A DNA stretch of 64,000 bases. It comes from Conus ventricosus (Eukaryota; Mollusca; Gastropoda; Neogastropoda; Conidae). Both the position numbers and the translations under genes were made by a program. A model generated the notes under the pieces. The model had not been told where the DNA came from and ran no database searches. It saw only the letters and a program-made list of their open reading frames with translations. Positions 5,559 through 49,599 of this stretch are shown here, in pieces. Positions within the stretch are counted from its first letter, which is position 1. Every line of letters starts with the position of its first letter. The stretch covers positions 72,094,353 to 72,158,352 of the forward strand of contig CM031616.1 in assembly GCA_018398815.1 (NCBI GenBank). Reading direction: 5' to 3'.

Positions 5559-6818
5559 TCGTACTTTGTAATCGGCCTCCCCAACCTTGGCAATTACTGG
5601 AAACAGTCCCTGCCAAGCAAGTTTCAGCTTGTTGTGCTTCACTGGTCGTAACACCAGCACCCTTGTTCCGGTTGGACTGTGCGAGGCCGGGATCTGACAT
5701 GGAAATGACGTTTATAAGTTCTTGCTGCTTTCTCTAGATTCTCCTGGTCTATGCTGCAAGTCTCGGCAATTCTGTTTCTCAAGTCGAAGACATATTCACC
5801 AGCCATTTGGATGTCCTTGGTCTCTGGCTTAGTCCAAAGATCACGCAGCACTTTCATTGGTCCTCTCACCCTGTGTCCATACAACAATTCGAAGGGGGGA
5901 AAAACCGGTGCTTTGTTGGGGAACCTCCCTGTATGCAAATAACAGTGCAGGCACCCAACGATCCCATTCTTCAGGCTTTTCTTGAGTTAATCTGCAAAGC
6001 ATATTCTTCAAAGTACCATTGAAACGCTCGACTAATCCATTGCATTGTGCATGGTATGGAGTAGTGCGCAGACCCTTGATGGACAACCCGAAAACTTGGC
6101 TCATCATTTTACTTGTAAACTGAGTACCTAGGTCTGTAAGAACTGATGCGGGAATTCCCGTCCGAGACCACATGGCAAATAGTGCCTCAACAACTGACTC
6201 AGTGGTTACTGTGCGAAGTGGGGTAGCCTCTGGATATCTCGTGGCGAAGTCCACCTGTACCAATATATACCGGCATCCTGTTGCAGACATGGGTGCAATC
6301 GGTCCTACTATATCCACGCCTACCCTGTCAAATGGTTCTTGCACAAGAGGCATCTTGACAAGAGGTACCGGTCTGACTCGCCCTTTATCCAAGGTACGCT
6401 GGCACTTTAAACATGACTTCATATACCAGCCTATGTCACCACACATCCCAGGCCAATAGAAGTCTGGGAATATTCTCTCCTTTGTCTTGTTTCCCCCCAA
6501 GTGTCCAGCCATAGGAATATTGTGTCCAAGAGTTAATACGGTCTTCCTTAGGGACTTTGGCACACAAACCTGGGTTGCTGTTCCGCTCTCACTCTCAATC
6601 TTGCGCACACGAACTCGGTCTTTCCACATGAAGGAGACCCTATTTCCATGGGGATGGAACACCAACTTTTCCTCTGCAGCTCTTCTGGCATGTGCCAGGC
6701 CATCATCCTGTTCCTGCCCACGAATCAGCTCGTCTTTTGAGACAGCCATCACTTGCTCCTTTAAAGACAAAGGTTGAGCAGGCTTGTCCTGGGCTCTGAC
6801 CTGAGCACGAGTCAACAC
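5559..6818 (-). pseudogene. Integrase of Gmr1-like gypsy element (frameshifted)
   Basis: This is the retroelement integrase, which joins element cDNA to host DNA. The main open frame (6818 down to 5841) shows a zinc-binding H-x-H / C-x2-C segment (near GHLGGNK and CLKCQRT), then the catalytic core. The first Asp is in GVDIVGP, the second in TDLGTQF and the Glu in LVERFNGTLK. After that the frame shifts into 5938-5639 (FELLYGHRVRGPMKVL, a typical core end). It shifts again into a C-terminal segment rich in basic and aromatic residues (LKLAWQGLFPV) that ends at the 52-bp repeat. The catalytic triad looks intact but the gene is split by at least two frameshifts, so it is a pseudogene or carries sequencing indels. 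Confidence 0.85.
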
Positions 6819-27876: not shown

Positions 27877-28233
27877 ATGATGTCAAATCTTGCTTCCCAA
27901 GAGTTTCATGTTCATCGAGGAGAAGACAGCAAAATGATTGGAACACTGCAGCGATGCAGGGATCTGAGCACAGACACTTTGGACTCTGATTTCCACCTCT
28001 GTAATGATGATGTGATTTTCACAGACTGCGATAACAAGGACCAGCTCTTAAAAGAACTTGATAACAAACTCAATGATGATGAAAATTATCGACAGAAAAT
28101 TCCAGCACTGACTGCAAACCTCATCAAACAGTTTTCAAAGAAGGTTTCTGTCATACAAAAGTTTTTGAAAATTAATCAACAAGAAATGTGGTCAGCCAGC
28201 GGTGAAAACGGTTTGTGTCAACAGTCCTTGTAG
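27877..28233 (+). CDS. Hypothetical open frame, possible exon or decayed gene piece
   Basis: A 118-codon plus frame with ordinary, non-repetitive composition, acidic and helical in the middle (DNKDQLLKELDNKLNDDEN), ending LKINQQEMWSASGENGLC. An overlapping earlier frame (27603-27866, ending WNTWMKKMEAPVSESAN) could join it by a small indel. I do not recognise a family. Unlike its surroundings it is not a tandem repeat, so it may be a real exon fragment or a remnant of a mobile element. No splice sites were firmly identified. Confidence 0.3.
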   Translation: MMSNLASQEFHVHRGEDSKMIGTLQRCRDLSTDTLDSDFHLCNDDVIFTDCDNKDQLLKELDNKLNDDENYRQKIPALTANLIKQFSKKVSVIQKFLKINQQEMWSASGENGLCQQSL

Positions 28234-28269
28234 AACTTTGGAAGCCAGTGCCAGCAACTGCTAGGAAAG

Positions 28270-28885
28270 GCGATCTCAGGTCAGTGCACACACTGTCAAT
28301 GGTCGTACAGTCCACAAGTACCACCACCTGAGCCTTGCAGGCTATCAGACAGGGTCAGTGCACACACTGTCAATGGTCGTACAGTCCACAAGTGCCACCA
28401 CCAGAGCCTTGCAGGCTATCAGACAGGGTCAGTGCACACACTGTCAATGGTCGTACAGTCCACAAGTGCCACCACCTGAGCCTTGCAGGCTATCAGACTG
28501 GGTCAGTGCACACACTGTCAATGGTCGTACAGTCCACAAGTGCCACCACCTGAGCCTTGCAGGCTATCAGACAGGGTCAGTGCACACACTGTCAATGGTC
28601 GTACAGTCCACAAGTGCCACCACCTGAGCCTTGCAGGCTATCAGACAGGGTCAGTGCACACACTGTCAATGGTCGTACAGTCCACAAGTGCCACAACCTG
28701 AGCCTTGCAGGCTATCAGACAGGGTCAGTGCACACACTGTCAATGGTCGTACAGTCCACAAGTGCCACCACCTGAGCCTTGCAGGCTATCAGACAGGGTC
28801 AGTGCACACACTGTCAATGGTTGTACAGTCCACAAGTGCCACCACCTGAGCCTTGCAGGCTATCAGACAGGGTCAGTGCGCACCA
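28270..28885. repeat. 74-bp tandem repeat, about 8.3 copies
   Basis: Units contain GGTCAGTGCACACACTGTCA, ATGGTCGTACAGTCCACAAG and CTGAGCCTTGCAGGCTATCA. Copies differ by only one or two bases. Each holds the short inverted repeat AGCCT-TGC-AGGCT. 74 is not a multiple of three, so the frames rotate and all three are open, which explains the stacked open frames here. The last unit runs into unrelated sequence at about 28880. Confidence 0.95.
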
Positions 28886-28928
28886 AATTCAGAGTGATTG
28901 GAAACAGCAGTGTCTAGTTCAGTGGAGT

Positions 28929-29436
28929 GGGGCCGGAGTAGCTCAGCTGGTAGAGCGACAGACTTGCAATCTTAGTGATCCTGGAGTTGCAGGTTTGAAT
29001 CTCCGCTGGGCCGTCTTGGTACAGGGGGATTTCTCTCTCACAGTTAACATTGGTTCTGACTCCATTTCCCAAGTAGTCCTTTGAATGAGACTATAAACCA
29101 AGGCTGCATAAGTGAACGCACGCATAACATCTTGCACACACATAAAATCCCATCACCAACTTTGGAAGAGAAGGCCAGTTTGGCCGTTGGTATGGATGAC
29201 ACATTACACAGAGCATGCACCCTGCATGAGAAATTGAAAGGATGAAGGAAGGAAGGAAACTGAGTGAATGATATTGACTGCATGACACAGGAAATGACTG
29301 AATGAGGCGCCGGCAGGCAGCTCTTCAGTCAGCACTACCCAAGTAGGCAGCCCGTTGTGTCCACGAAAGAGTGGATTGTCAGTGCCTAGAACCTTTGGCA
29401 AGGCACTATATACATGCCACGTTATTATTATTATAC
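28929..29436 (+). mobile_element. tRNA-derived SINE with (TTA)n tail
   Basis: The head reads GGGGCCGGAGTAGCTCAGCT, with an A box (TAGCTCAGCTGGTAGAG) and B box (GGTTTGAATCT), then an about 400-bp body. The end (AGGCACTATATACATGCCAC followed by TTATTATTATTA) is typical of invertebrate tRNA SINEs. No protein coding. The target duplication is not obvious. Confidence 0.8.
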
Positions 29437-31770: not shown

Positions 31771-31792
31771 CTCTCTCTGTATTCTTGTTCCT

Positions 31793-32347
31793 AAAGTGTT
31801 TACCCTACACTTTAGAAGGGTGGCTTAGTGTGACATGTCTAGTGCGTTAGCTATTCCTAGTATTGGGGTTTCTACTTATGCACACAAACGCATACACACG
31901 CACACAGTGCAACTCACCCTGCAATACTGGAATGGCAGTGGGTGTCAGTCTGTGACGCGCTCTGTAGTAGCCGGGCTTGCAGCTTCCAGAGGGTCAAGCA
32001 GCTGACGGCGCAACCAGGAAAGGCGACGGCCACTTCTGGTTGCGCAGGTACGGTGGTTGTTGGTCACAGTTGGTGTTGGTCACAGTTGGTGTTGTCAACG
32101 GACGCCACACGTCGCTCCTGTAGTTAAGGTAGAGGACGGGCGTCCCCAATGGTAGTTGCTGTCTGGCTTCGTAGTCGGAGCTGGCGTTGAGGAGATCCTT
32201 ACTCGGCGGGGGTGGCAAGTCGAATGCAGCCAACTCCTTCCCGCCCTGTCGTCTGCTGGTGAGTGAGCACTGCTCATTGCGAGGCGCACCTTCCGGTTCC
32301 GGTGGTGAACCGAGTGCGTATGCACACTATACTCGTGCGTCACTACA
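31793..32347 (-). repeat. 3' LTR
   Basis: 555 bp, matching 42060-42615 throughout. On the minus strand it begins TGTAGTGACGCACGAG and ends TAGGGTAAACACTTT. The boundaries are set by the TTCCT duplication and by the polypurine tract. Confidence 0.93.
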
Positions 32348-32362
32348 CTCCCCCCCGACTTT
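32348..32362 (-). promoter_or_regulatory. Polypurine tract priming plus-strand DNA
   Basis: Read on the minus strand AAAGTCGGGGGGGAG directly precedes the 3' LTR start TGTAGTG. This is the expected place and composition for a polypurine tract. Confidence 0.85.
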
Positions 32363-32428
32363 ATAAAAAAGCTTCAATGAGTGTAGTTCCCTCGCAAGAG
32401 CCCAGGTCCGGCTAGCATCCGCTTTGCC

Positions 32429-33275
32429 CTAACAGCTGAAGAGGCGCAGAGCATTGCTGGCAGACAGGTCCAAAAGCTCCTCCACAGGCATCGACAGCAT
32501 TGGTGCCACACACTCGGCCACTGGAAGAGCTGGTTGGGTGCAGCACCACTGGCTCTTTGGGGGACGGAAATATGGAGCGTCTGTCTCCAGAAGGATGCGG
32601 TCCAGGTCCATCCCACCTAGTGCCTTTTTCTGCTCCGGGTCAAATGACCTGGCTAACCGGGTGAACCCGAAGTGGACATTGGGGAAGGCCCCCACCCACC
32701 GGTCACGGACGTTCTCATCCCCCGTGAAACAGTGAATATAAATACGCTGCTCATAGGGGTAGGACCATCCGGACCAGGCTCAGCATTTGCAGGTAGGCCT
32801 CTGCCCCATCATCCCCAGGCATCCCTCGGCAGTGTAGCACAACAACATGGTGGGGTGAGACCAGGGGCAGAATCCCCTGGAGATTCACAGCTTGCTGGGA
32901 CCAGGTCTCAATTGGCATGCTGTGGTCGAGTCCAATCTCGCCCACAGCGGCCACCCGTGGCGATGAGACAAGTTCCCGCAGCCTAACGAGGACTCTCTCC
33001 ATATCCCGCCAGCCAATGTCGCACAACGCTTGGGATGCAGCCCAACCGCCACCACCATATCCTTGGGGTACCGAACAAGATCTCGGAGGAGGGGATAGGA
33101 GACGGATCGCAAAAGGAGGCACAAGTTCCCACCAATTGGACCCGTTTCTCCATCCTCACGAAGGTCCCATCCAGCACAGCCCTCAGACTGGAGTCCCGCG
33201 GAAGCTGCATTGCTTTGATAGTCCTATCCAGGTGGAAGTGTGCATCAAATGCCCGCGGAAGCTGAGTTTCGGGTA
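32429..33275 (-). pseudogene. TatD-type metal-dependent nuclease domain (cargo of the LTR element)
   Basis: TatD proteins are amidohydrolase-fold nucleases (3'-5' exonuclease or AP endonuclease activity). All signature motifs occur in order on the minus strand: metal-binding H-x-H in AFDAHFHLDRT (about 33236-33275), AVGLHPK (about 33045), the Glu in AVGEIGLDH (about 32935), the His in VVLHCRG (about 32840), the His in IHCFTGDENV (about 32720) and the Asp in ILLETDAPYF (about 32580). The frame ends with a stop at 32429, just before the polypurine tract. It is spread over several frames, so it is either decayed or hit by indels. No catalytic motif is lost. The start is unclear: the frame runs back to 33732. 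Confidence 0.85.
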
Positions 33276-34715
33276 TCATGGCTGCCTGGGCAGGCTCCAA
33301 ATGCCTCCGGCGACGGATAATGATCCCTCCAGTACTCACTCTCCTGGTGGTCCATCCGCGCCACCAGTAGCAGCACCACCCTCCAGTGACTAACACGGCT
33401 GGTGACTCCGCCGGGTACAGCTGGAAGGTAGTCGGCACCGGCTCCCCAATGTATTGACAGAAAGCTGTCATAGCCTCCCTCTGCCCATCCAAGATGCGTG
33501 CATCCTTCCGGGTGGACAGGAGACGCTGCATGTTGAGGAACCGAACCAAGTCCTCCCAGCGACCAGACGACATGATCAGCCAGTCCATGGCCTGTAACAT
33601 GCCTTCCTTCGCCACTTCAACACGTTTTCTGATGTTGGGGGCAGCCTTTCGTCGAAAAACCCCGGAAGGTGATGTGTGAAGGCATGCACCTTCAGGTCCC
33701 CCACTAGCTCCTCGCAGCCCGGTACCAAACACTCTTCCTCCCGGGACTCGACTGCAGAGTGTGACTGGCTACAGGGACGGCCTCCCTCGGCCCAACCGAA
33801 GAGGGGGTGAAGGTAGCGCTGGGGATCGCCTTAGGCAGCTTAGCCTGTTTTTTCTTCATCCTCCTCCTGGCGAAGCCGAGTAGTGTTTTCCTGCTCCTGC
33901 CTCCTCACTCGCAGTCCTCCAAATAGTACGGGAGGTGAATGAAGGTCCACTTTCTGCTGGGCCAGCTCTGGGAACCTTACCTAGAGCCTCTCGACGTGCT
34001 GAGGCTGCCCGCTTGCGCGACGCTCTAGACTTCCGGAGGCTCCCAGTCCGGAACACCACCTCTTGGGAGGAGGCTGTACTTTGGCCTCAACTCCCGTGTC
34101 AGTCCGTCACCGCGCCAGGCGGCCATCCCAAAGATGAGGAAGAGCACCCCAGCAGCGGATTTTGGTGTTTCCGGGAAACGACCCCCACGGGCGACTTCGT
34201 GGGGAGAGCAACCATGAAAATCTTCCCCAGTATCCATCACGCTGAGGATGTCGGAATGCTCATACCTCACACTCCGGGCAGGCTCATCCCTCGCGGAGGG
34301 CCGCTCGATATGGCATTCCAATTGGGGTCGGTCAGCAAGCGTAATGTCAAGGCGACCCCCCCAAATTGCTCGGAGGCTGGTTTGGACTTGCCGCGGCGTC
34401 CAGACCGCGAAGTGACAGGTGCCACATTTTCTGTGATCCACCTATCATTCCGCAACTGATAAGTCTGCATCGCCCTGCAACCTTCTTCAGCCATCCCCTT
34501 GAGAAAGGGTCATCCCGCTGCTTGGCGACCAGCGACCATCCGGAGCAAGCATGCTTCACGCTCGTCCTCGGACGCCTCTTTGGTAAGCCAGAGGTCCTGC
34601 ACCAACTGATCTGTGTGCGGGAACAGCCGACCTGCGCTGACAACCATCAGCGCGCTCCAGGGCGTTCAATTTCCGGTGGCCATCCTGAAACAGAACCTCT
34701 GTCTAAAAGCTCACT
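33276..34715 (-). pseudogene. Linker region between PHD finger and TatD domain
   Basis: Broken minus-strand frames join the PHD finger to the TatD motifs. Visible parts are QLVQDLWLTKEASEDE near 34590, MAEEGCRAMQTYQLRNDRW at 34494, a basic stretch RKSRASRKRAASARREALGK near 33990 that may act as a nuclear signal, and a helical segment MLQAMDWLIMSSGRWEDLVR near 33590. No family recognised. It is probably part of the same accessory protein as its two neighbours. Confidence 0.5.
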
Positions 34716-34868
34716 GCCTGCAAGCCCTGCACTTGTACTTGTCAATATCAAGTGCGTCAGTGGCGGGTGACGTTAACACATGATCCATGGTACCATCTCC
34801 TGGCAGAAGTCGCATTGGATCATGAAACGTCCACCCCACTGCCTCCTGCAGAAGCAGTAAACCCCCTG
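34716..34868 (-). pseudogene. PHD finger directly after the integrase
   Basis: The minus strand shows the full Cys4-His-Cys3 pattern of a PHD finger: VYCFCRRQWGGRFMIQCDFC, then after a 1-nt shift WYHGSCVNV, then DIDKYKCRACR. The FMIQCDFC...WYHGSC arrangement, with C-x-C as the first pair, is like PHD fingers that read histone H3 tails (KDM2/KDM7/CXXC1 type). It begins about 5 nt beyond the integrase stop in a shifted frame. It could be a frameshift-fused C-terminal integrase domain or the start of a separate accessory ORF. Two 1-2 nt frame changes interrupt it. Confidence 0.85.
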
Positions 34869-34872
34869 ATCC

Positions 34873-35968
34873 TCAATCCTCCGGGACTTCTTCTTCTTCT
34901 GGATGTGACTTGAACCGCTGGATCCATGCAGGCAGTTTCCTGTCCCTGCACGGCATCAGTCGGTCATGATTTGTCACGAAGACCGAGTTCCGGAGTTTGA
35001 CCTGATACAGGTAGGCAGACAGCTTTCTCCAGATGACCCCGGACCTTTCCAGGGTGAACAGAGTTTCCTGCATTTACCCTTCACAACTGCAGTATCCAAG
35101 AGATATACGACATCACCCTCGGCATATGGTCTCAACAAAATCTTGAGATCATAATTCTTTTCATACGCCGAAGGGATGTCCTTCAGATTCTCTCTTGCAG
35201 CTGTGTGGGCCTCCTGCAAGGACTGGACCAAGTGGGACACGTACTCATCCTCACACTCGAACCTCTGCCTGGAACCGGGAACATCAGCTGAGCTGGTATG
35301 TTCACCTCCTCCCCAACATCAACCATGTAGGGGTAAAGCCAGTGGTTCGGTTTACAGAGGACCGGATAGCTCCAGCTATCTGCTGTACGTGTTCGTCCCA
35401 CTTGTTCTGCGCCTTCCCCAGGAAGCACCTTACGGCATCCATCAACGTTCGGTTGTACCGCTCCACCTGACCATTCGACGCAGGACGATTATGGCGTCGT
35501 TCGGGCCTTGTGAATCTTGAAGCATGGCACAACGCCTCGAACAACTTGCTTTCAAAATTGCGTCCCTGGTCTGAGAACAGCTGGAGCGGGCAACCGAACG
35601 TGAAAAGAACCCATCCACCGCAAGCTTTTGCTGTTGTCTCGGCCTTCTGAGATGGAAGAGGCACGCACTCCACCCATTTGGTGAATTGGTCCACCATCAT
35701 GAGGCAGTGCTCATTCTCATGTTTGTCCTGGGTAGAGGGCCAATGAATCAATATGGACACGTTCCATCGGCGCCCCTGCGTGGTATTCAGTCAATGGGAC
35801 TTTTCCATAACGTTTGTTTTTCTTGTTCTTGCTACAAACGTCGCAGGACAGCACATAGGCCTCGACATCGCGAGCTAAAGCAAACCAAAAGAATTTCTCC
35901 TTCAGTCTGGCTTTAGTCCTCGCCACGCCTTGGTGTGCTGCTGATGGAAGGTCATGGTGCCACTGCAT
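34873..35968 (-). pseudogene. Integrase of the LTR element
   Basis: Integrase inserts the cDNA. The N-terminal zinc-binding segment has H-x3-H (WHHDLPSAAHQG) and CDVC near 35850-35965. The core has Asp in LMMVDQFTKW, Asp in LFSDQGRNFES and Glu in GQVERYNRTLMD. The C-terminal GPY/F-like region reads LLDTAVVKGKCRKL, PWKGPGVIWRKL and VKLRNSVFVTNHDRL, ending with an acidic stop-proximal tail (PEEEEVPED) at 34873. Frameshifts fall near 35740, 35300 and 35060. No chromodomain follows. A PHD finger occupies that place. Confidence 0.88.
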
Positions 35969-36526
35969 TGCTTGTTCCTGGAGGGAGCGGGGACTACCAG
36001 TTCCAGTCCTTGGAGTCTAGCTTGCGCTTGAATAGCAAGCTTTCCTTAAGCAGGAACAACTCTCTGTTCAGCCAATAGTATTTGCACCTGGCGAAGCTGA
36101 GAAGAGTTCCCCTTCATCGGGTTCAGTCCCGTCCTGAAGGTACTGGAGGAGCAGGTGTAGATCCTTATCTTTCCCCTGTGCTGTCCGGAGTTCTTGAGCT
36201 GTAAACCCCAGCACGAGGGGATTTGTGAGGTAGCCTCTTGTGCAAGACGCACATTACAGGTCCTCAGCTGCACCTGTCCATCCCAAGTCTCTATCTCAAA
36301 GCTTACGCCATCAGTGCCGCCAGTCTCAAAGTCTTCCAGACCGGCAAGACTTTCCTGCACTGCCTTTTCAGGCAGTGAGGCACTCTGACTGCCCCGAGGA
36401 CAAAAACTTAATGTACTCGTGCTGGTCAACCGCTCGTTGTAACCTTGAGACACCTGGGCGTTTCCACCAAGGTGAAAACCACGATTGGCCGGCCAGACGA
36501 AGTTACTTCGGCGCTCAGGATGTGTC

Positions 36527-37470
36527 AGAAAACTGGCAGGTGCAACCTTCGAGTGTGCCAGAAAACTGTCAGGCCCCTTTCGGGCCAGAAAACTGTCAGG
36601 TTCACCCTGTGGGTGAACCAGAGAACTGGCAGCAACTCTGCACCAGAAAACTGGCAGGGATGTCCGGACATCCAGAAAACTGGCAGACACAGAGCCCGAA
36701 CGCCTTCAGGTGCAACCCCGTCTGCACCCGGACACTGGCATGCGTTCCCCCGGTTGGGAACCGCACGAGATTGGGCAACTGTCATGCTTGTTGGCGCACG
36801 GGCAAGCAAGACTTTAGGAATGCGCAAGGAAATTTGCCCACTGTCATGCACATTCCATCCTTCAGAAGTAGGCGCACGGCCATCATGACTGGCAAACCCC
36901 ATGGTACCCCTCCCAGCGGGAGAAAGTACACGGCCATGATGGCTGGCAAACCCCATGGTACCCCTCCCTGCGGGAGAAGGCACACGGCCATCATGACTGG
37001 CAAACCCCATGGTACCCCTCACTGCGGGAGAAAGTACACGGCCATGATGACTGGCAAACCCCATGGCACCTCTTCCGCGACTCCTCGAGAGAGACCCCCC
37101 TACAGAAGCCACTGTAAGTCCATCCGGCTGGGGCCCGGAAGTAGGCACACGGCCATCATGACTGGCAAACCCCATGGTACCCCTCCCTGCGGGAGAAAGT
37201 ACACGGCCATGATGGCTGCAAACCCATGGCACCTCTTCCGTGACCTCTCGAGAGAGACCCCCCCACAGAATCTACTGTGAGTCCATCCGGCTGGGGCCCG
37301 GAAGTAGGCACACGGCCATCATGACTGGTAAACCCCATGGTACCCCTCCCTGCGGGAGAAAGTACACGGCCATGATGGCTGGTAAACCCCATGGCACCTC
37401 TTCCGTGACCTCTCGAGAGAGACCCCCCCACAGAAGCTACTGTAGGTCCATCCGGCTGGGGCTCCTCGGG
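36527..37470 (-). repeat. Tandem repeats in the spacer between RNase H and integrase
   Basis: Two arrays are present. At 36527-36740 about seven copies of an AGAAAACTGGCAGG-type motif occur. At 36870-37470 units of 50-60 bp (CACGGCCATCATGACTGGCA plus AACCCCATGGTACCCC) are arranged in a higher-order period of about 170 bp that also contains CTCGAGAGAGACCCCC. On the sense (minus) strand they encode Gly/Arg/Ser-rich repeats (RGTMGFASHHGRVLSPAG). Long frames on the opposite strand here are artefacts. Confidence 0.85.
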
Positions 37471-37499
37471 AGCCAAAACTGTCAGGCTTCTTCCGTCAG

Positions 37500-37995
37500 G
37501 CCCCGGGCTTCGTCCACAGCCTGAATGAACTCCCCCCACTGTTCGTCGCTCTCTTGCAGTATTTGCAACCCCACAAGGCAGACTGTCAGGCCGAATGCCA
37601 GCCACGAAAGATGGACAAGGGGTCAAAGCGTCAGGAATTCTGGACAACGCATCCGCGTTCTGATGCTTTGCCCCGGCCCGATGTTTGATAACCATATGGA
37701 ACTGTGAAAGTTCCTCCATCCATCGGGCCAACTGTCCCTGTGGGTGTTTAAACCGCAGGAGCCATGTCAGACTTGAGTGGTCGGTCCTGACGTAAAAAGT
37801 CCTATCTAATAGGTAGTAACTTGAACTGCCTTGTAAACCTCACGATACTCACAGCTCTTCCGGGTTGTGCAGTACCTTCTCTGTCAGGAGTCAGGCGAAA
37901 CTGCCGTACGCAATCACCCGCTCCACACCTCCTTGAATCTGACTCAGAACCCCCCGATTGCCAAATCACTAGCATCCGTATCCAATACAATGGAT
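37500..37995 (-). pseudogene. RNase H of the LTR element
   Basis: The first catalytic Asp is in VLDTDASDLAI (about 37960-37990). The C-terminal signature FHMVIKHRAGAKHQNADAL is at 37640-37700, with His and the Asn-Ala-Asp of gypsy RNase H. Frames are interrupted between them. It follows RT directly and leads into the repeat-rich spacer. Confidence 0.8.
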
Positions 37996-39020
37996 CCGTG
38001 CTGTTTGGCAATGCCAGGACGGGGGGTTCAGTCAATACTCTACAGAGGGTATCGAAGGAATTCGCTTTTCCTCATCCCAGAAGAACTTGTTTTTTCCTGT
38101 GAGGTTATACAAAGGCTGCGCCAACGCTGCAAAGTCTGGAACGAACATGCGATGGTAATTAGCGAAGCCAAGGAACCGCTCCACATCTTTTGAAGATTTC
38201 GGAACGGGCCAGTCCCTCACAGTTTGAATATCCCGGTCAGACATAGCAATTTGGTTTTTGCTAACCATCCGCCCCAGGAACTCAACTTTGGACTGGAAGA
38301 AAAGGCTTCTTTGGCTTGAGCTTAAGACCATGCTGTCGAAACCTTTGCAACGCCCCCCTCAAATTCTGCAAATGATCTTCAAAGCTGTCCCCCAGCACCA
38401 AAATGTCGTCCAGAAAGCGAGCACAGTGTTCCATGTCAGACCCTCAGGATAAGGTTCACCACGCGTGAGAATGTGGCTGGCGCATTGGTGAGCCCAAAAC
38501 CCATCCGAACATGCCGAACAGACCGTACTTGGTCAGAAGGCAGTTTTCTTTCTGTCAGCCTCCCTGACTCTCACTTGCCAGTACGCATTATGGCATCCAG
38601 CTTTGAAAACCATGTGCTCCCCGACAAGGTATCCAGACAGTCTTCAACCAATGGCAAGGGGAAAGTATCCTTGACTGTGACATCATTTAGGGCTCGGTAA
38701 TCGATGCACCAGCGGACTGATCCGTCCTTCTTTCGGATCAGTACTGCACCGACGCCCACTCAGATATCGACTCCTGAATGACACCAGCCTTCAGCATTTT
38801 CTGTTAAATGTGCCTCCTCCTCTCCTGCGAATACTGCAGGCGTACGGCGCATTCTTTGCTTTATGGGCTTGGCATCACCAGTGTCAATGGAGTGCTCGAT
38901 ACCGGTGAAGTTCCCTAAATCAAATTCATCTGCAGCAAACACATCCTGATAATCAGATAGGAGCTTGGTTAACTCCACCTTCTGATCCTTTGTCAGGTGT
39001 GTGCTGGAGTCACTAGCCAA
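37996..39020 (-). pseudogene. Reverse transcriptase of the LTR element
   Basis: Order on the minus strand: LLSDYQDVFAADEFDLG and IEHSIDTGDAKPIKQRMRR (RT entrance, 38840-38960), IRKKDGSVRWCIDYRALNDV (38690-38750), LVEDCLDTLSGSTWFSKLDA (motif A, last Asp near 38600), a degraded motif near 38510, then CARFLDDILVLG (catalytic Asp pair about 38404-38412), and VEFLGRMVSKN plus VERFLGFANYHRMFVPDFA (38140-38290). This is the classic gypsy RT layout. At least three frameshifts are present. Confidence 0.9.
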
Positions 39021-39199
39021 CTTCTGCAGATGCTCCGGGACTTGGTCCTTCGGGGTGGCTTAACCCCACCTGTACCACTCTGCAGCTTGCTTCCCCCCTT
39101 ACCATTTGTTTACTTTCAGAGGAAGAGTTCTGCTGTACGGGTCCATAACCTCCTGCACTTCATATGCGGTGGCTAACAGCTCCCCCTTCCGGATGGTAT

Positions 39200-39800
39200 G
39201 GTACCTGTCACTGGGGGTTTACCAGGCAGAGGATTGGATCGTCCCGGACCTCCGCACTGTCCTCGGGATTAAGAGCTCAGAGCCCACCGAAGACTCAGTG
39301 TAATAGTCCTGAAGGACCGTATCCAATCTGCCGGTTACCCTCCGACGTGTTGGGTGGTACCACAACCTTACAGGCGCTGTAACCCTGGCTATGGTTGGCG
39401 GGTCCCTGACCAAACTCATGTCTAAAGGGATTAATTTCGTCCCTATCAACAGCGTTCAGCTCTCATGGTCATGAATCGCCCCCCATGGTGCAGAAGATCA
39501 TGCCTAACGCATTCTCGGTCAGCAATCGGAGCACATACAGCCCTCTCTAAAGGTTGACTGGCCAATCTTCAGAGTGTACAGGTGAGGTGGACAAAACCCT
39601 TCAGAGCGGAACCCTGGTCAGCATTTGCATCACCACTTCCTCAGCTTTCTTGGTTTCTTGGAAAGTCTATCGTACACAGAGTGGCAACATGGTGATTTCT
39701 GCCCAGAATCCACTCTGGCTTAACGGAATGTCACCCACCATGATATGTACCCGGAAGAGCCTGGACAAACCCGATTGACTCGTATGATTTCGAGCTGTCG
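39200..39800 (-). pseudogene. Protease-like region of the LTR element (weak)
   Basis: The stretch between the zinc knuckle and RT is where the aspartic protease should be. A phrase IGTKLIPLDMSLVRDPP (about 39400-39450) and VHIMVGDIPLSQ-like reading near 39720 fit a protease or its flank, but no intact D-T/S-G triad is seen in the frames as given. Assignment is positional. Confidence 0.35.
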
Positions 39801-40129
39801 GCCCGATTGCTTCCGATGAACCCTTTCTGACTTGCCACAGGGTATTTGGACCAGGGGCAGTTTTGTCTGCTAGAGAACCCTGCGGACCACCAGAAATGCC
39901 AGGTGATTATCTTAGCCTGCTTAGCCTTTGGGCAGCCGAATCTTGGAAGTCCGATTCGGCTGGGCAAGGTTAAGGAACACGCCCTTGGAGTGGTGACCAT
40001 CGGCCAACACTTTCTGGGACTCCAACTTCGAAAAATTCTGGCCTGTGTATTTCCGGCTCAGCGGATCGGCCACCATCCCAAGCCTTAGGCGTATTAAAGA
40101 CCCTTCTTGGAATTGCCACTTGGTTGCCC

Positions 40130-41843
40130 TCCTTTGCGCCAGTTCCGATAACGCTGGCAGTCCTTTTTCAGGTGGCCCTTCTGCTGACAGAATAAGCATT
40201 TTACCCGGGAGTCCTGGGTGGCGGTAGCTTTTGGGTTCAGGGAAGGGGTAGTTTCCTTAGCTTCCAATTCGAGAGCTGAAGAGTAAGCCTCTCTATGGCC
40301 TTCTGCAGACTCTCGAACTCTTCCCTGGTGACAGGTGAAACTGTCCCTACTGTCCTACCCTTGGATCTCCCAGGGACTTGCGCCCCCGTCACCCACTGCT
40401 TGGGAGATGTGCTGAATTGTTTGATTTTATCACAGCCACCTCCATGGATTCGGGTTCCTCCAGACAGACATGTTTTCCTGCCTCCTTATCCAAACTCCCT
40501 AGGCAGAACTTGTTAATGGCTTCATCTCGGACATGCTTCTCAGGCAGGGTATGGTATGCTAACGTTGCCAGCGTAAGCACCCTATCAGCCCAATCGTCCA
40601 AAGATTCACCCGCGTCTGGTGGGCCTGTTGGAAACGCATCCTGGAAGTCCCCACGTACTCTTTGGCACCAAATCGAGCCGCAAGCTTCCCATCAACTGAT
40701 GGTAAAGAAAACTCACCGCCCAACTGGGTGAGCGTTGTGAAGAAATCCAGGCCTTCCCTTCTAGGCACCAACCTAAGTAGTCCCTACTCTCCAGTTCCGA
40801 CCAGTGAAGGACTACCCGGTAGCTGTCGAACTTTTGCTGGAGGACTGCCAATTAGTCCATCCATCATATGAAGGTTCTTTGGCAGCCTCCGGGGTCTCCT
40901 CTTGGTTCAGAGAGAGGGCTACCGCAGGGACCTCTCCACTACCACCAGGTGAGCGAGGCGTATATGCCCCAACATGAGCTTCACCTTGGCGATAGGGACG
41001 ATAGTGCTGACTGTCGCCTGCCCGGACGGCATGCCCATAAGTATGACTCGGAGGAGAGGGATGTCTTACCTGGTTCACCTCCCGTCGCCACCGCTGTTCA
41101 TGTCCATCGCCACTCCTCTCGTGATCCCACCAGCCCTGGTCGTCCGGGTCAAATCTCCGGCCTCTTACACCTCTCTCTCGGCGGTGACCTAGATCCAACC
41201 GGACTGGAAGGACCCGCTGGGATTCAGAGACCCGATCACTCCCACGGCACTCACGATATCGGCTATCCGGCAATGCCTTTTCGAGGTACAATTGCTCGGA
41301 ACCTCTCGTGTGTGTTTGCCGCGGGCGTAACAGAGGTTCGTATGACCCCTTGTCTCCGTGGCTACGGGAAACAGACGATAACCCAGAGTGGACCGTTGGC
41401 CAGTACTTCTACCTCCATCCTCCGGTCCTAAACAGAGTATGTCTCTCCACCCACTTTCCGTTCGCAGCTCTTCTGACTCACGAGCGGAAAAGCTCTGATT
41501 CAATATATCTTTAGTCAGACGGGGTCGGGACAAGGCTGTGGACACTTTACGGGGTATTTTGGACTGACTAGGCTGGCTTGGGGCGACTGGTCTTCTAGTT
41601 TCACTCTTTAATGTGGCTACACCAGTCACCACCGACCCTTCAGCAGTACCCCCTGGTCCCCAAAGTTAATCAAGAAAGAAGGTAAGGGCTTACTTCTCCG
41701 TGCAGCACGGACGTCAAGATTGGTAAGGTCAATCCTCCCTCCCTCTCTCTAATTCTGACCAACTGGGCAGCCCTCTTAGGCCCTATCCCTGGCAGCATCT
41801 GACTAAGCTGCGATGCAGTTGCTAAATTGATATTTAGAGCCAT
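40130..41843 (-). pseudogene. Gag of the LTR element with helix-hairpin-helix start and zinc knuckle
   Basis: The likely start is the ATG at 41843. It gives MALNINLATASQLSQMLPGI followed by GPKRAAQLVRIRERE, a helix-hairpin-helix motif of the ComEA-like kind. A frameshift follows, then a Ser/Arg-rich linker (41291-41632) and an Arg/Gly/Pro-rich stretch (40880-41200). Capsid-like helices come next (KFDSYRVVLHWSELESRDYL, LGGEFSLPSVDGKLAARFG, LATLAYHTLPEKHVRDEAIN at 40500-40850). The zinc knuckle CLFCQQKGHLKKDC is at about 40157-40198. Gag would package the element RNA. Several frameshifts are present. Confidence 0.75.
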
Positions 41844-42040
41844 TAGGGGTGTGACTGTATTGTCTGGGGTTACTCCAATATAGGGTATACCCACTCCCTT
41901 CCAATGCTAACTGCAAGGGTTAACAGTATATATGACTGTATACTAGTATCTGTGTAAATAGTGCTTGGTGCTGAGCAGCAACACAATTCCAACAACTAGG
42001 AATAACACTGTGAATGCATGCACAACTAAGCTACGGGAAA

Positions 42041-42057
42041 TCCCACTTCTGACACCA
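42041..42057 (-). promoter_or_regulatory. Primer-binding site, probably for tRNA-Leu
   Basis: Read on the minus strand TGGTGTCAGAAGTGGGA lies 2 nt inside the 5' LTR. It is the complement of a tRNA 3' end (TCCCACTTCTGACACCA), including CCA. That end fits tRNA-Leu as I remember it. The PBS role is secure from position, the tRNA identity less so. Confidence 0.8.
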
Positions 42058-42059
42058 TT

Positions 42060-42615
42060 AAAGTGTTTACCCTACACTTTAGAAGAGTGGCTTAGTGTGA
42101 CATGTCTAGTGCGTTAGCTATTCCTAGTATTGGGGTTTCTACTTATGCACACAAACGCATACACACGCACACAGTGCAACTCACCCTGCAATACTGGAAT
42201 GGCGAGTGGGTGTCAGTCTGTGACGCGCTCTGTAGTAGCCGGGCTTGCAGCTTCCAGAGGGTCAAGCAGCTGACGGCGCAACCAGGAAAGGCGACGGCCA
42301 CTTCTGGTGCGCAGGTATGGTGGGTTGTTGGTCACAGTTGGTGTTGGTCACAGTTGGTGTTGTCAACGGACGCCACACGTCGCTCCTGTAGTTAAGGTAG
42401 AGGACGGGCGTCCGCAATGGTAGTTGCTGTCTGGCTTCGTAGTCGGGAGCTGGCGTTGAGGAGATCCTTACTCGGCGGGGGTGGCGAGTCGAATGCAGCC
42501 AACTCCTTCCGCCCTGTCGTCTGCTGGTGAGATGGCACTGCTCATTGCGAGGCGCACTTCCGGTTCCGGTGGTGAACCGAGTGCGTATGCACATCTATAC
42601 TCGTGCGTCACTACA
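42060..42615 (-). repeat. 5' LTR
   Basis: 556 bp, the partner of 31793-32347. It is followed on the plus strand by the second TTCCT. Promoter elements are expected here but I could not identify a clear TATA box. Confidence 0.93.
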
Positions 42616-42620
42616 TTCCT

Positions 42621-44789: not shown

Positions 44790-45990
44790 TTACCGCCTGG
44801 AGGAGCGAAAAGAGCCGGAGCGTGTGGCGGAGATGGAGTGTTGGGCCACCACAGCTGATGCGATGCCCCTAGACCCATCATCGCGCAGACGAGAAACATC
44901 GCGCAGGTAGAATTGGATGAAGGTGCCAGGGGAACGCCAATATGAGGCATCTAACACACTCTGAATGCTGACATTATGAGCTACTGCCAGCGAAGACGCC
45001 CATGCCCTAATCTCATGAGGTCTTGGTGAGAAAACAGCGAAATCTTCTACAGGTCTCGCGTACGCAGCTTTAATGACTTCTCTCAGCCATAGAGAGATTG
45101 AAGAGCGCCTGGTGTCCTCCTTATAACCTTCGTTGTAAGAGAGAAACAGGTGGCGCTGCTTGGAGCGAGAGGTTTTCGTGCGTTTCCTATACTCCCACAG
45201 AGCGCGCACCGGACAGAGAGTGCGGTCTTCGTCGTCTGGGGCGAGAATAGAAGTGAGAGGAAGAATGGAGATAGTCGGTGAAGGAGAACCTGGCAACTGG
45301 TTTTTCGCTAAAAATTCTGGGAGGAGGCGAAGAGATATCGAGCCATCCGGTTCGGAAGCGACGTCCCCAGGCAGGCCACTAAGGGCATGGACTTCACTGC
45401 AGCGCCTCCCTGAGGCCAGGGAAATGAGAAAGGCTGTTTGAAGGAAAGGAATTTCAGAGAACACCCCCGGATGGGCTCGTAAGGGGAGCCTGAGGGAGGA
45501 GAGGACTAAGAAAAGATCCCACGCCGGGGTACGGCGGGGGCATCGGGCCTCCTGTAGGGCTGCTCCTCTGACCAGATCCCGAAGAAGAGGGTCGTCCACG
45601 AAGGAGGGGCCCCCTAACTGGCGCATAGTGGTGGAAATAGCTGCCCTGTTAACCTTAACAGAGGAGGCTGAAAGCTTTTTCTCCGATGAAAGAAAAGCTA
45701 GGTAGTTCGCCAATAGGCATTGAGAGGGAGAATGAGGTGATACTGCGTGGTTGGAGCACCAAGGGAGCCAGCCATTCCAGTGGACACTGTAGACACTTTG
45801 GGTGCCTGGCCTGTGGGCATGTTCCACAAGGCCGATTACCGCTGGGGAGGCGCCTTGTGCAGACAGTGTGTCCCGCACAGTAGCCAGGCGTGAAGATGCA
45901 GCACGTTTGGATTGCCGTGTGGAATGCCTGACCGTGGCTGAAGCAGGGACTTTGCTTTTAAGGCGAGCGGTATCGGAGGCACGTGAGACA
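44790..45990 (-). CDS. DIRS tyrosine recombinase
   Basis: The open frame 46310-44790 (506 codons) is uninterrupted. Its first 100 or so residues are the RNase H region read out of frame, and the recombinase itself begins at about residue 110. Catalytic residues of tyrosine recombinases are visible: the first Arg in LASGRRCSEVHAL (about residue 302), HxxR in RPHEIRAWASSLA (432-435) and the nucleophilic Tyr in FIQFYLRDVSRL (about 468). It would join circular element DNA to the target. It is the most intact coding region in the window and may still encode a whole catalytic domain. Confidence 0.88.
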
Positions 45991-46264
45991 GGTGTAACAG
46001 TTCTGGAAACCACGCTTGGGCCGGCCAGCGTGGAGCCACAAGAATAAGCGTGGCTGCGTCTTCCCTTGCTTTGCGGATAACTTTTCCCAGAATGGGGAAC
46101 GGGGGAAAGGCATAGCCCGCCAGTCCGGACCAAGGGATGGACAGGGCGTCCACAGCCCATGCTGCCGGATCCGGAACTGGGGAGACATACAGCTGGAGAC
46201 GGTGGTTGAACCGGGTGACGAACAGGGCTACCTGTGGTTTGAACCATACAGTCCAGAGAGGTTA
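45836..46264 (-). pseudogene. DIRS RNase H and pol C-terminus, truncated by a LINE
   Basis: The minus frame 46153-45836 and its upstream extension in the same frame to 46264 read VALFVTRFNHRLQLYVSPVP, AWAVDALSIPW, YAFPPFPILGKVIRKA and LVAPRWPAQAWFPELLHLS. This is the signature end of DIRS RNase H, with the Asp-Ala-Leu-Ser core. It overlaps the recombinase ORF in another frame, as is usual in DIRS. The upstream coding sequence is lost because the LINE at 46265 interrupts it. Confidence 0.85.
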
Positions 46265-46474
46265 GGATAGGATAATGTTGCTTATAGCCCAGCCGACCGC
46301 AAAGGGCCACATCAGGCTGTCACCACGTTAAAATCAACTCACCAGTCATTTGAAAAAAAAAAAAAAAAAAAACCAACTTTCACACATGTCAGTAAATGAC
46401 ATCGTCTAGGAATGCACCAGAAACTTCATTAAAAATCTTTCTGCCGTAAAATCTTAAATAAGATGAAAAATGTT

Positions 46475-47389: not shown

Positions 47390-48672
47390 CAGTGTTGATT
47401 CTAGGATTTCAAAAAAGGGGGCCCAAGGGCTCCCTCACATAAAAAAAGGGGGCCCATAGGGTGAAAATGGGAGGCCCTCAAAACGCGTGAAAATTCAGAT
47501 TTTAAAGCTTAATCACAATGATTACATTATGGCCAAAGTAAACTAAAACAACAAAAAGAAACAAGAAACGAGTTACATTTTATTACAGAAACGCACACAC
47601 ACACACACACACGCACAGAGTACACACACATTCTGACATACCTTAGAAGACTTGTCTTTTTCTGGTGGTGCATGTACTCAGCTGAGCTCCCTTCTTGGCA
47701 GTCATACAGCAAGTGAGCAAGTCTGTTGTCACCTCATCATAGAATCCAGCAACTCTAAGCCTACCCCACAATTAATTCAGTCTCTTTATATGAAGTGACC
47801 ATCACTATTGTCAAGATTTATATACCATCAGTATCACCTTAAGAAAACCCTTTAACTGTGAAAAGTTACTGTGTACACCTTCACCATACACAACTGAAAA
47901 GCTTTATACATATGTACAGCCCACAGAACTCCATTCATTTCTTGTAGATCCTCCTATCCTTCTGTTGCTTCCACTCTGCTGCAGCAGCTGTGAAGTCATG
48001 GTCATTGATGGGAGGACCTTCACATTTGATGGTCATCAGCACATTGAGGCTGTCTTCTTTCAGCCTGTTTCTCCTTCTTTAACCAGGGTCTGTCTTTCAA
48101 CCATGATTCTTGAAACGCCTTGTAGAGTTTCTTCTGCTCCTCCGTGTTCGAACTGGAGGGATCGGCTTCGTTTTCACCATCTTCATTATCTTGCTGATCT
48201 TTGGGTTCACTGGCACTTTCAACCGTTTCGCCTCCGGCGTCGATCGGCTGAGACACGCTATCGCTTGACTGAGTAGCCGTAACGGTGGCTGTAGACTCAT
48301 TATCGGCTTCCAGCTGATGATCTTTAGATATATCAGTGCGTTTTTTCTTCGTGAAGGCGAAAGAAAACAGAGTGTTTGGCTTCGCGCGCTTCATCGTTGA
48401 AGCCGACATGAGGACTGTTGAACTGCCAGTACCGCTGATTGGCTCAACTGCTGCTTCTCGGCCAATGAAAATATTTGGTAGAACGCGCGTTCGGCTAAAG
48501 GAATTGCTCAGGAGGCTATACACACGGCAGCGGCGAAGCCGCGCTGGTTGTGCAAAAACGCGTTCGTTCTCTTTTTTTTTGCGGCTTTTGGGCCGCGTCT
48601 TTCGCGATTTTTTGCGGCCTTCAGAAAAATATTGCGGGAATCCCGCAAGGGCGCACTCTAGAATCAACACTG
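47390..48672 (-). mobile_element. 1.28-kb DNA transposon with 15-bp TIRs and 6-bp target duplication
   Basis: The ends CAGTGTTGATTCTAG and CTAGAATCAACACTG are perfect inverted repeats. GAGGTT flanks both sides (47384-47389, 48673-48678). The uninterrupted site is seen in the other LINE copy (near 11380-11395), which proves the insertion. CAGTG...CACTG ends recall hAT-like elements, but those make 8-bp duplications, so the superfamily is open. It encodes one short protein and no full transposase, so it is a deletion derivative or a non-autonomous element. Confidence 0.9.
48020..48395 (-). CDS. Short protein of the DNA transposon, transposase N-terminus-like
   Basis: From the ATG at 48395: a basic start (MKRAKPNTLFSFAFTKKKRT), an acidic Ser/Glu-rich middle, then AFQESWLKDRPWLKKEK and a stop at 48020 (125 codons). 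F-x-x-S-W-L followed by P-W-L is a pattern I associate with the segment just before the zinc finger in hAT-like/ZNF862-type proteins. The finger and catalytic domain are absent. The reading frame continues upstream in an open frame through the element end into the LINE RT, making a chimeric 524-codon frame, which I regard as accidental. Confidence 0.5.
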
Positions 48673-49554
48673 GAGGTTGATCCGGAAACTTGGAAAAATC
48701 GGACACAACTCCTAGGTCTAGACCTGCATTCCGCACGTGAGGCCGCATACGAAGACCAAACGGCGGAATACATTTCGGGTTGTTTTCAAACTTACTTTGG
48801 AACGGAGGGTCAAACACACAGTCATAGGCAGGATTCTGCGGTTCTGAGAACAGTCGGATATAATAATTCAAAGACAGTTTCAGCCTGCGGTTGGACAGTG
48901 AAGGTTCACCCGCCTCTGCGTACAGGCTGTACACAGGGGTGGTGCGGAACGCTCCAAGACAGAGACGAAGCCCTTGATGGTGGATAGGGTCCAAGAGTTT
49001 GAGGTAAGACGATCTTGCGGAGCCGTAGACAGCACAACCGTAGTCCAGCCTGGAACGGACCAAGGCTCTGTAGAGGTGCAGCAAAGTTTTCTTATCAGCA
49101 CCCCAGTCGGTGTGCGCTACGACCCGCAGAATATTCAGTGCTTTCTGGCAAGCAGTTTTGAGGTGTTTGATGTGGCTGAGAAAATTCAGTTTCTGGTCAA
49201 AAATGACTCCCAGAAATTTGGCCTCTTTAACAGCTGGAATGGGAGATTTCCCTACTTGAAGTTCAGGATCTGGAAAAAACTGACGGAAATTATGGAAGTG
49301 AATACACTGCGTCTTTGTTGGAGAAAAGGTGAAACCGTTTTCATCTGCCCACCGATGGATTTTATCTACGCAAAGCTGGAGCCTGCGCTGGACACTCGGG
49401 TACAGGCTTCCAGTTGCGTAGACAGCAAAATCATCCACAAACAATGAGCAGTCTGAACCCTGCTGAACTGATTTCACAATGTTGTTGATTTTAATACTAA
49501 AGAGGGCAGGAGCCAGTATGCTCCCCTGGGGAACACCCAACCCCTGCTCGTGGA
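48673..49554 (-). pseudogene. RT palm region of the second LINE copy
   Basis: The frame contains GLGVPQGSILAPALFS, LFVDDFAVYATGS (Asp pair near 49430) and ETQ-to-thumb phrases such as RVVAHTDWGADKKTLLHLYR. It stays open, without stops, across this whole stretch. It is better preserved than the first copy here. The upstream RT motifs continue in the separated piece at 63329. Confidence 0.85.
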
Positions 49555-49599
49555 ATGAGTCCATTCTCAAAACATGTGTTTGTTTTTTTGACATAGATA

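Follow-up and report, generated by a model that had tools for sequence, protein, structure and literature searches.

We propose that the last gene of a Ty3/gypsy-type LTR element in Conus ventricosus encodes a zinc-finger protein of about 760 amino acids that ends in a class II TatD domain. This gene lies at the place of an env or accessory gene, and from the comparison of its copies it is quite likely to be a selected, working nuclease gene of the element. We studied the element in the window (the 64,000-nucleotide stretch of C. ventricosus DNA that was analyzed), and we also examined other copies in the genome and relatives in other species. TatD is a real and unexpected standing gene of a lineage of LTR elements. 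We found no description of a TatD inside an LTR element in the open-access literature that we searched; one may exist elsewhere in print or in a repeat database.

The element in the window is of the Ty3/gypsy type (Metaviridae; Table 1). Like those elements, it has a near-identical LTR pair (555-556 bp), a short target site duplication, a CCHC-like knuckle, the order RT-RNaseH-integrase, and sites that resemble a primer-binding site and a polypurine tract. It differs in having a PHD finger at the end of pol and an additional zinc finger-TatD ORF before the 3' LTR. The boundaries of 31793 and 42615 that were given in a sequence-only reading of the window are correct: they are flanked by TTCCT, with a purine tract by the 3' LTR and a primer-binding-like site after the 5' LTR. 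(A 4-bp duplication with one extra LTR base fits equally well as a 5-bp duplication.) The primer-binding-like site may correspond to the 3' end of a tRNA-Leu. When pieces of the element were searched singly against Pfam, the matches had the order HHH_3, CCHC knuckle, RVT_1, RT_RNaseH, Integrase_H2C2, rve, a weak PHD, and TatD_DNase; CCHC, RVT_1, rve, and PHD all score under the Pfam cut-offs in this copy. The HHH_3 match (7.2e-07; 41673-41906, minus strand) opens the gag-like region, and a helix-hairpin-helix motif at that place is unusual to our knowledge. Also, tandem repeats of about 163 bp occupy 36784-37547, in the spacer that separates RNase H from integrase, and match patterns suggest that their number differs among copies of the element.

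Table 1. Features of the LTR element in the window and the basis for each.
Feature	Positions	Strand	Basis
Whole LTR element, Ty3/gypsy-type	31793..42615	-	Order gag-RT-RNaseH-IN-PHD-ORF with TatD; LTR pair, target site duplication, Pfam domains
Target site duplication TTCCT	31788..31792 (left copy), 42616-42620 (right copy)	.	Reading of flanks
3' LTR	31793..32347	-	Alignment of LTR pair
Polypurine tract CGGGGGGGAG	32348..32357	-	Adjoins 3' LTR; read directly
TatD class II (HxH) nuclease domain and stop codon	32429..33275	-	PF01026 on 2 of 3 separately searched pieces; motifs; at least 3 frame moves
Upstream part of TatD ORF: N-domain, basic/Ser-rich linker, C2H2-like zinc finger (~33655-33731), helical module	33276..34710 (ends approximate)	-	Homologous to the open ORF at L006:66-2345 and to other species' proteins
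PHD finger, C-terminus of pol, broken here	34714..34955	-	0.051 here, under cut-off; 4.2e-08 in open copy L017:6633-8774
Integrase, H2C2 and rve	35305..36016	-	Pfam
Long spacer, RNase H to integrase	36100..37500	-	~163-bp tandem repeats (families D2, D3)
Reverse transcriptase and RNase H	37159..39059	-	RT_RNaseH; RVT_1 under cut-off here, strong in copy L015
Gag-like region	40097..41906	-	HHH motif at 41673-41906; CCHC knuckle in 40097-40354, just under cut-off
Primer-binding-like site TGGTGTCAGAAGTGGGAT	42040..42057	-	2 bases past 5' LTR; read directly
5' LTR	42060..42615	-	Alignment of LTR pair

The sequence-only reading had listed five TatD landmarks on the minus strand of 32429-33275, and all of them are there in the order given. 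They are spread over three open pieces (HxH in 32986-33768, GEIGLD and LHCRG in 32754-33155, and IHCFTGD and ETDAPYF in 32432-32779), and the reading frame shifts at least three times across the domain. The second and third pieces match Pfam's TatD_DNase (7.7e-07 and 3.8e-14), and the HxH-bearing piece did not match TatD when it was searched alone with Pfam. Counted by eye on their alignment, the differences between the two LTRs are 7 substitutions and 7 one-base indels. Since there are as many one-base indels as substitutions, some of the frame breaks may be assembly errors, or they may be true decay.

Open copies elsewhere in the genome give a clearer picture of the protein. L006 has an open frame of 760 amino acids with a zinc finger (C-x4-C-x9-H-x4-H) at residues 327-347 and TatD at residues 488-759. 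This domain matches PF01026 at 2.4e-33 (116 bits versus the curated cut-off of 27) over profile positions 1-253, and it has the metal ligands HxH, E, H, H, and D, as expected for a member of the TatD family. We reject a chance match to the motifs given this full-profile hit, which bears out the similarity that the HMM matches to the window's pieces had indicated. Other open frames are found in L003 (682 amino acids), L052 (563), and L002 (399). L017 has an open frame of 714 amino acids that contains H2C2 and rve and ends in a PHD finger (residues 668-712, 4.2e-08). L006 and L017 together indicate that a second protein begins just after pol and that TatD is its last domain. So, judging from the open copies, 32429-33275 makes up only the last third, at the C-terminus, of an ORF that spans about 32429-34710: the domain that was first reported is real, but it is not a stand-alone gene. 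Of 87 matches to PF01026 in the genome, only 4 are open and free of stops over the whole profile, and the frames of the window copy and of many others are broken.

A DNA search of the 3.52-Gb assembly (12740 contigs) yielded 147 TatD candidates. We scored 40 of these, and all 40 match, at 91-100% identity. In 38 of the 40, an LTR lies 67-81 bp downstream of TatD; the other two have no readable LTR flank, due to Ns (L006) or the end of the contig (L039). Integrase is upstream of TatD in 24 of the 31 copies that have at least 3.3 kb of flank, and 3 of the 7 misses are partly N. Starting from integrase, we scored 40 of 129 candidates, and in 35 of these 40 a TatD match follows downstream, at 1.9-2.5 kb and mostly at 2.02-2.07 kb. 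For the other five, there was no TatD among the matches listed (in two TatD lists). Six further copies with wide flanks (L009-L020) were compared against the parts of the element. The order integrase-PHD region-zinc finger-TatD is kept in five of the six, with RT further upstream in four; RT was not found in this comparison in the copy L011/L012. The copy L009/L010 has an internal deletion between LTR and zinc finger part.

These results bear on whether TatD is a recent one-off capture or an artifact of a chimeric assembly, which might be suspected from the window copy alone, as its frames are broken. The 40 scored copies are on many contigs, their spacing from the LTR and the integrase is nearly fixed, they show purifying selection, and they have relatives in other species (see below). 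We reject both forms of this explanation, which is almost certainly wrong. Neither of the outcomes that the sequence-only reading had named as refuting occurred: the domain is present in other copies, and HMMs detect TatD. As the sequence-only reading had it, TatD lies inside the LTRs in the position of an env or accessory gene and is copied with the element. It had also been described as cargo; it is indeed carried by the element, but it is not loose cargo: it is a domain of a zinc-finger protein that is under purifying selection. TatD sequences were also noted at two other loci in this genome. Positions 1-861 of L057 are a diverged TatD copy with two stops, possibly from another family of elements. 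At C21:10075889-10082227, pieces of TatD are in exon-like order, and these may be a host gene.

To look at selection, we read the variants of the other 39 copies on the frame of L006. Among variants that are common to at least 4 copies, TatD has 24 synonymous and 20 non-synonymous changes, or 0.39 of the expectation (P = 0.0016, ignoring the relatedness of the copies), and no stop. The corresponding counts are 17 and 11 (0.29) for the zinc finger-helical part and 25 and 29 (0.55) for the N-part. If variants in at least 2 copies are considered, then TatD has 52 synonymous and 60 non-synonymous changes (0.52, with one stop), and the ratios are 0.37 for the zinc finger-helical part and 0.63 for the N-part (with one stop). 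In frames +1 and +2, the variants in at least 4 copies give 1.26 and 1.28 for TatD (range over all parts, 1.26-1.88). Singleton variants are near neutral (0.91 with 5 stops in TatD; 0.90-1.03 with 11 stops across all parts), and are mostly changes after insertion or errors. Between L006 and L052, which are 90% identical, dN/dS is 0.31 for TatD and 0.17 for the zinc finger-helical part. We interpret the depletion of shared amino-acid changes, which is confined to the TatD reading frame, as purifying selection. TatD is thus both present across the copies and selected, as expected for an accessory gene that is maintained by the element.

The metal ligands H491, H493, E592, H627, H660, and D711 are kept in 40, 39, 40, 39, 39, and 39 of the 40 rows, respectively; one row has Asn at H627, and the other misses are gaps. 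The zinc finger's four ligands are kept slightly less often (in 38, 38, 37, and 35 of 40), and the rest are mostly gaps. In our cross-species alignment (A1), each of the six metal ligands is either invariant or conserved at 90% or more. This conservation argues against the idea that the TatD fold was kept as a non-catalytic module for binding or targeting. Some members do deviate at the catalytic motifs (for instance, P0031 is without the GEIG stretch), but we consider a non-catalytic role to be very unlikely.

Similar proteins are found in other animals. With the 760-amino-acid protein as the query, we obtained 14 proteins (7999 candidates were scored), including proteins from Dreissena, Pecten, and Ptychodera; P0001 from Argopecten is 40% identical over 98% of the query. 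With the 399-amino-acid query, we obtained 697 proteins (8000 were scored; the best 120 of the 697 are listed), and the best 20 include proteins from Mizuhopecten, Pecten, Tegillarca, Nucella, Ylistrum, Babylonia, and Haliotis, several of which are named TATDN2. Some of the protein clusters stand for many sequences (P0002, 29; P0003, 15; P0018, 20; P0025, 34), as expected of repeats. By identity, the nearest named relative is from the neogastropod Nucella (80% for integrase-PHD and 58% for TatD). By path length in the tree, the scallop TatDs are as close to the Conus TatD as Nucella's is. A search of viral contigs gave 4 TatD loci at 24-26% identity, and no relative of the integrase was found in the viral contigs. 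In the search of genome contigs, the best 80 of 469 loci are all bacterial by record title.

Relatives of the element's integrase are found outside Conus as well, and two of them are linked to TatD. The integrase-PHD query had 651 matches, and 2 of the best 120 of these (P0133 and P0227) also carry part of the TatD ORF; the other 118 contain no part of it in the same protein. In the predicted gene model P0133 from Nucella, RNaseH-IN-PHD runs into the N-terminus of the TatD ORF: residues 897-1150 are 94% identical (over 254 amino acids) to the N-terminus of P0023, which is a zinc finger-TatD protein that ends in TatD. This model hints that pol and the TatD ORF may be transcribed together. P0227 from Acanthaster, a partial gene model on a contig of 10,222 bases, has H2C2-rve-PHD-zinc finger-TatD in one protein and is 52% and 29% identical to the two Conus element proteins. 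The linkage in both species is predicted from gene models, which can join neighboring genes. Scanning the 132 proteins from the TatD searches with a pol profile gave no matches. Because the TatD ORF is separate, the absence of pol and TatD from each other's proteins is weak evidence either way. In a quick tree of pol (SH-aLRT only, and only for relatives of the Conus element's integrase), Acanthaster groups with elements from Lytechinus (7 rows, 96) and Nucella groups with the window element (98). We also note that P0007 (TatD ORF) and P0169 (integrase-PHD) are each on a contig of 5350 bases from the same source. These may be one contig, or the agreement may be due to chance, so we did not count them. 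Four integrase or TatD proteins of similar type (P0137, P0152, P0190, and P0010) were deposited under bacterial MAGs (Thiodiazotropha and Sedimenticola), and are probably host contamination.

To place the element's TatD, we built a tree of 61 rows with a midpoint root. From the 132 listed proteins, the sample took P0001-P0065 without P0012-P0014, plus five more. P0012-P0014 are fused to radical SAM and were dropped from both of our TatD trees, and the 61-row tree also omits P0040, P0010, P0011, P0047, P0035, P0008, P0033, and P0034 (long or unsure branches). No TATDN1 or TATDN3 is included by name. The window's TatD falls in a long-branched clade of 28 rows (support 100/99) with proteins from Nucella, Acanthaster, Ptychodera, and scallops. 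The neighboring group has 12 rows (92/83) and is of TATDN2 type: it includes fish, scorpion, nemertean, starfish, and unnamed proteins, and 4 are named TATDN2 by their source. The joint node (98/96) sets these two groups apart from 21 other TatDs, which are bacterial where named. In an earlier tree that included the eight long-branch rows, a comparable clade of 35 rows had support of 93, with an inner set of 31 rows at 95.

Some of the scallop and whelk relatives are called TATDN2 in the databases, which would fit a TATDN2-type gene of the host that has been amplified and lies near the elements only incidentally. In the 61-row tree, the element's TatD is not a member of the TATDN2-type group, but lies in the separate 28-row clade. 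A profile for the zinc finger-helical part matches 22 of 27 members of this clade beside the query (13 of these were used to build the profile), and the five that it missed are models that start at or near TatD. In the TATDN2-type group, it matches only 1 of 12, weakly (P0036 from Patiria, 2e-05). Given this and the near-fixed place inside the LTRs, we reject a plain host TATDN2, which we view as highly improbable. Compared with animal TATDN2-type proteins, which are the nearest group in the tree, the element's TatD has the same HxH motif and metal ligands. (The HxH motif, which is common to TATDN2 and TATDN3, defines class II TatDs, with two metals, as described in PMC10085689.) It differs in being preceded by the zinc finger-helical module, in its longer branches, and in its number and place: a single genome has at least 40 scored copies (from 147 candidates), and they lie inside LTR elements. 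Bacterial TatD/YcfH share the motifs, and the best match by sequence to a solved structure is YcfH (1yix, 1.1e-09), but those are stand-alone cellular enzymes in a separate part of the tree. Read most simply, these sequences go back to one ancient capture from a source like TATDN2; several independent gains, or exchange at a later time, are a possible alternative.

What might the nuclease do? The sequence-only reading had suggested that it might process cDNA ends, degrade competing DNA, or help integration, and these roles are speculative. The substrates of TatD enzymes are ssDNA, AP sites, or RNA, which makes any guess at RNA:DNA a weak one. The replication of retroelements passes through RNA:DNA hybrids. 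According to PMC12709183, human TATDN2 acts on RNA both as a 3' exonuclease and as an endonuclease and resolves R-loops, and medaka tatdn2 works in germ cells. Also, LTR elements of plants and oomycetes are reported to have gained extra RNase H domains independently and repeatedly (PMC10508981, PMC5348765). Together, these analogies favor an extra role in removing RNA or trimming 3' ends, with RNA:DNA hybrids as a tentative substrate; we would not be surprised if this guess were wrong. We propose an old acquisition of TatD from a TATDN2-like source, most simply in one event, after which the gene has travelled with the PHD-finger integrase lineage in molluscs and echinoderms. Selection would maintain it because the element uses the enzyme in its own replication cycle, which we infer. 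The basic linker and the zinc finger would hold the protein on the element's nucleic acid, and the two-metal site of TatD would trim 3' ends or cut the RNA in RNA:DNA hybrids. If expressed and active in this way, the enzyme would be a second RNA-removing activity beside the RNase H of RT, during reverse transcription or in clearing R-loops.

The main alternative is that the nuclease acts on the host instead of on the element. It might destroy nucleic acids that compete with the element or serve in defense, such as small-RNA precursors, cytosolic DNA or RNA, or R-loops that trigger repair, much as an anti-defense protein would. The long-branched TatD clade and the position of the gene at the env or accessory place would fit with this, as would the work of the class II relative TATDN2 on the host's R-loops, as described in PMC12709183. 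However, the neighboring PHD finger and zinc finger suit a role on chromatin or on the element equally well. We consider action on the host to be unlikely, and less so than the other alternatives above. We prefer use by the element itself. In its broadest form, our proposal is that a deep lineage of animal LTR elements, in at least Mollusca and Echinodermata (and perhaps in Hemichordata, by TatD sequence), replicates with a captured TatD that removes RNA from RNA:DNA hybrids or trims cDNA ends. Retroviruses and plant Tat elements, with their extra RNase H, would then offer a parallel but unrelated solution. We offer it as a speculative possibility.

The folds of RNase H and TatD are unrelated. 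The elements with extra RNase H (the plant Tat lineage, Archon and Chronos of oomycetes, and retroviruses) resemble the Conus element in having gained an extra enzyme that degrades nucleic acids, as reported in PMC10508981 and PMC5348765. They differ in that the retrovirus-like extra domain adjoins the native RNase H, whereas the TatD of Conus is in a separate ORF after integrase. If our proposal is correct, then the set of enzyme folds that LTR retroelements have adopted gains a new member, and some database entries for TATDN2-like proteins from scallops and whelks are proteins of elements, not host repair genes. Natural sequence replicates in several species would allow tests of the role of TatD, and the action of TATDN2-type enzymes on RNA:DNA hybrids could be tested where such hybrids are an obligate intermediate.

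Elsewhere in the window, we noticed signs of other mobile elements. A second and different LTR-element integrase is at 5841-6818 on the minus strand (H2C2, 2.1e-17; rve, 2.1e-07). Also on the minus strand, an ORF of 524 amino acids at 48020-49594 contains a reverse transcriptase (RVT_1, 1.5e-15), and an ORF of 506 amino acids at 44790-46310 resembles DIRS/tyrosine recombinases by eye and has a weak match in Pfam to a phage-integrase SAM-like domain (0.0062). Finally, 28205-29018 is an array of 74-bp tandem repeats whose middle units are 98-99% alike.
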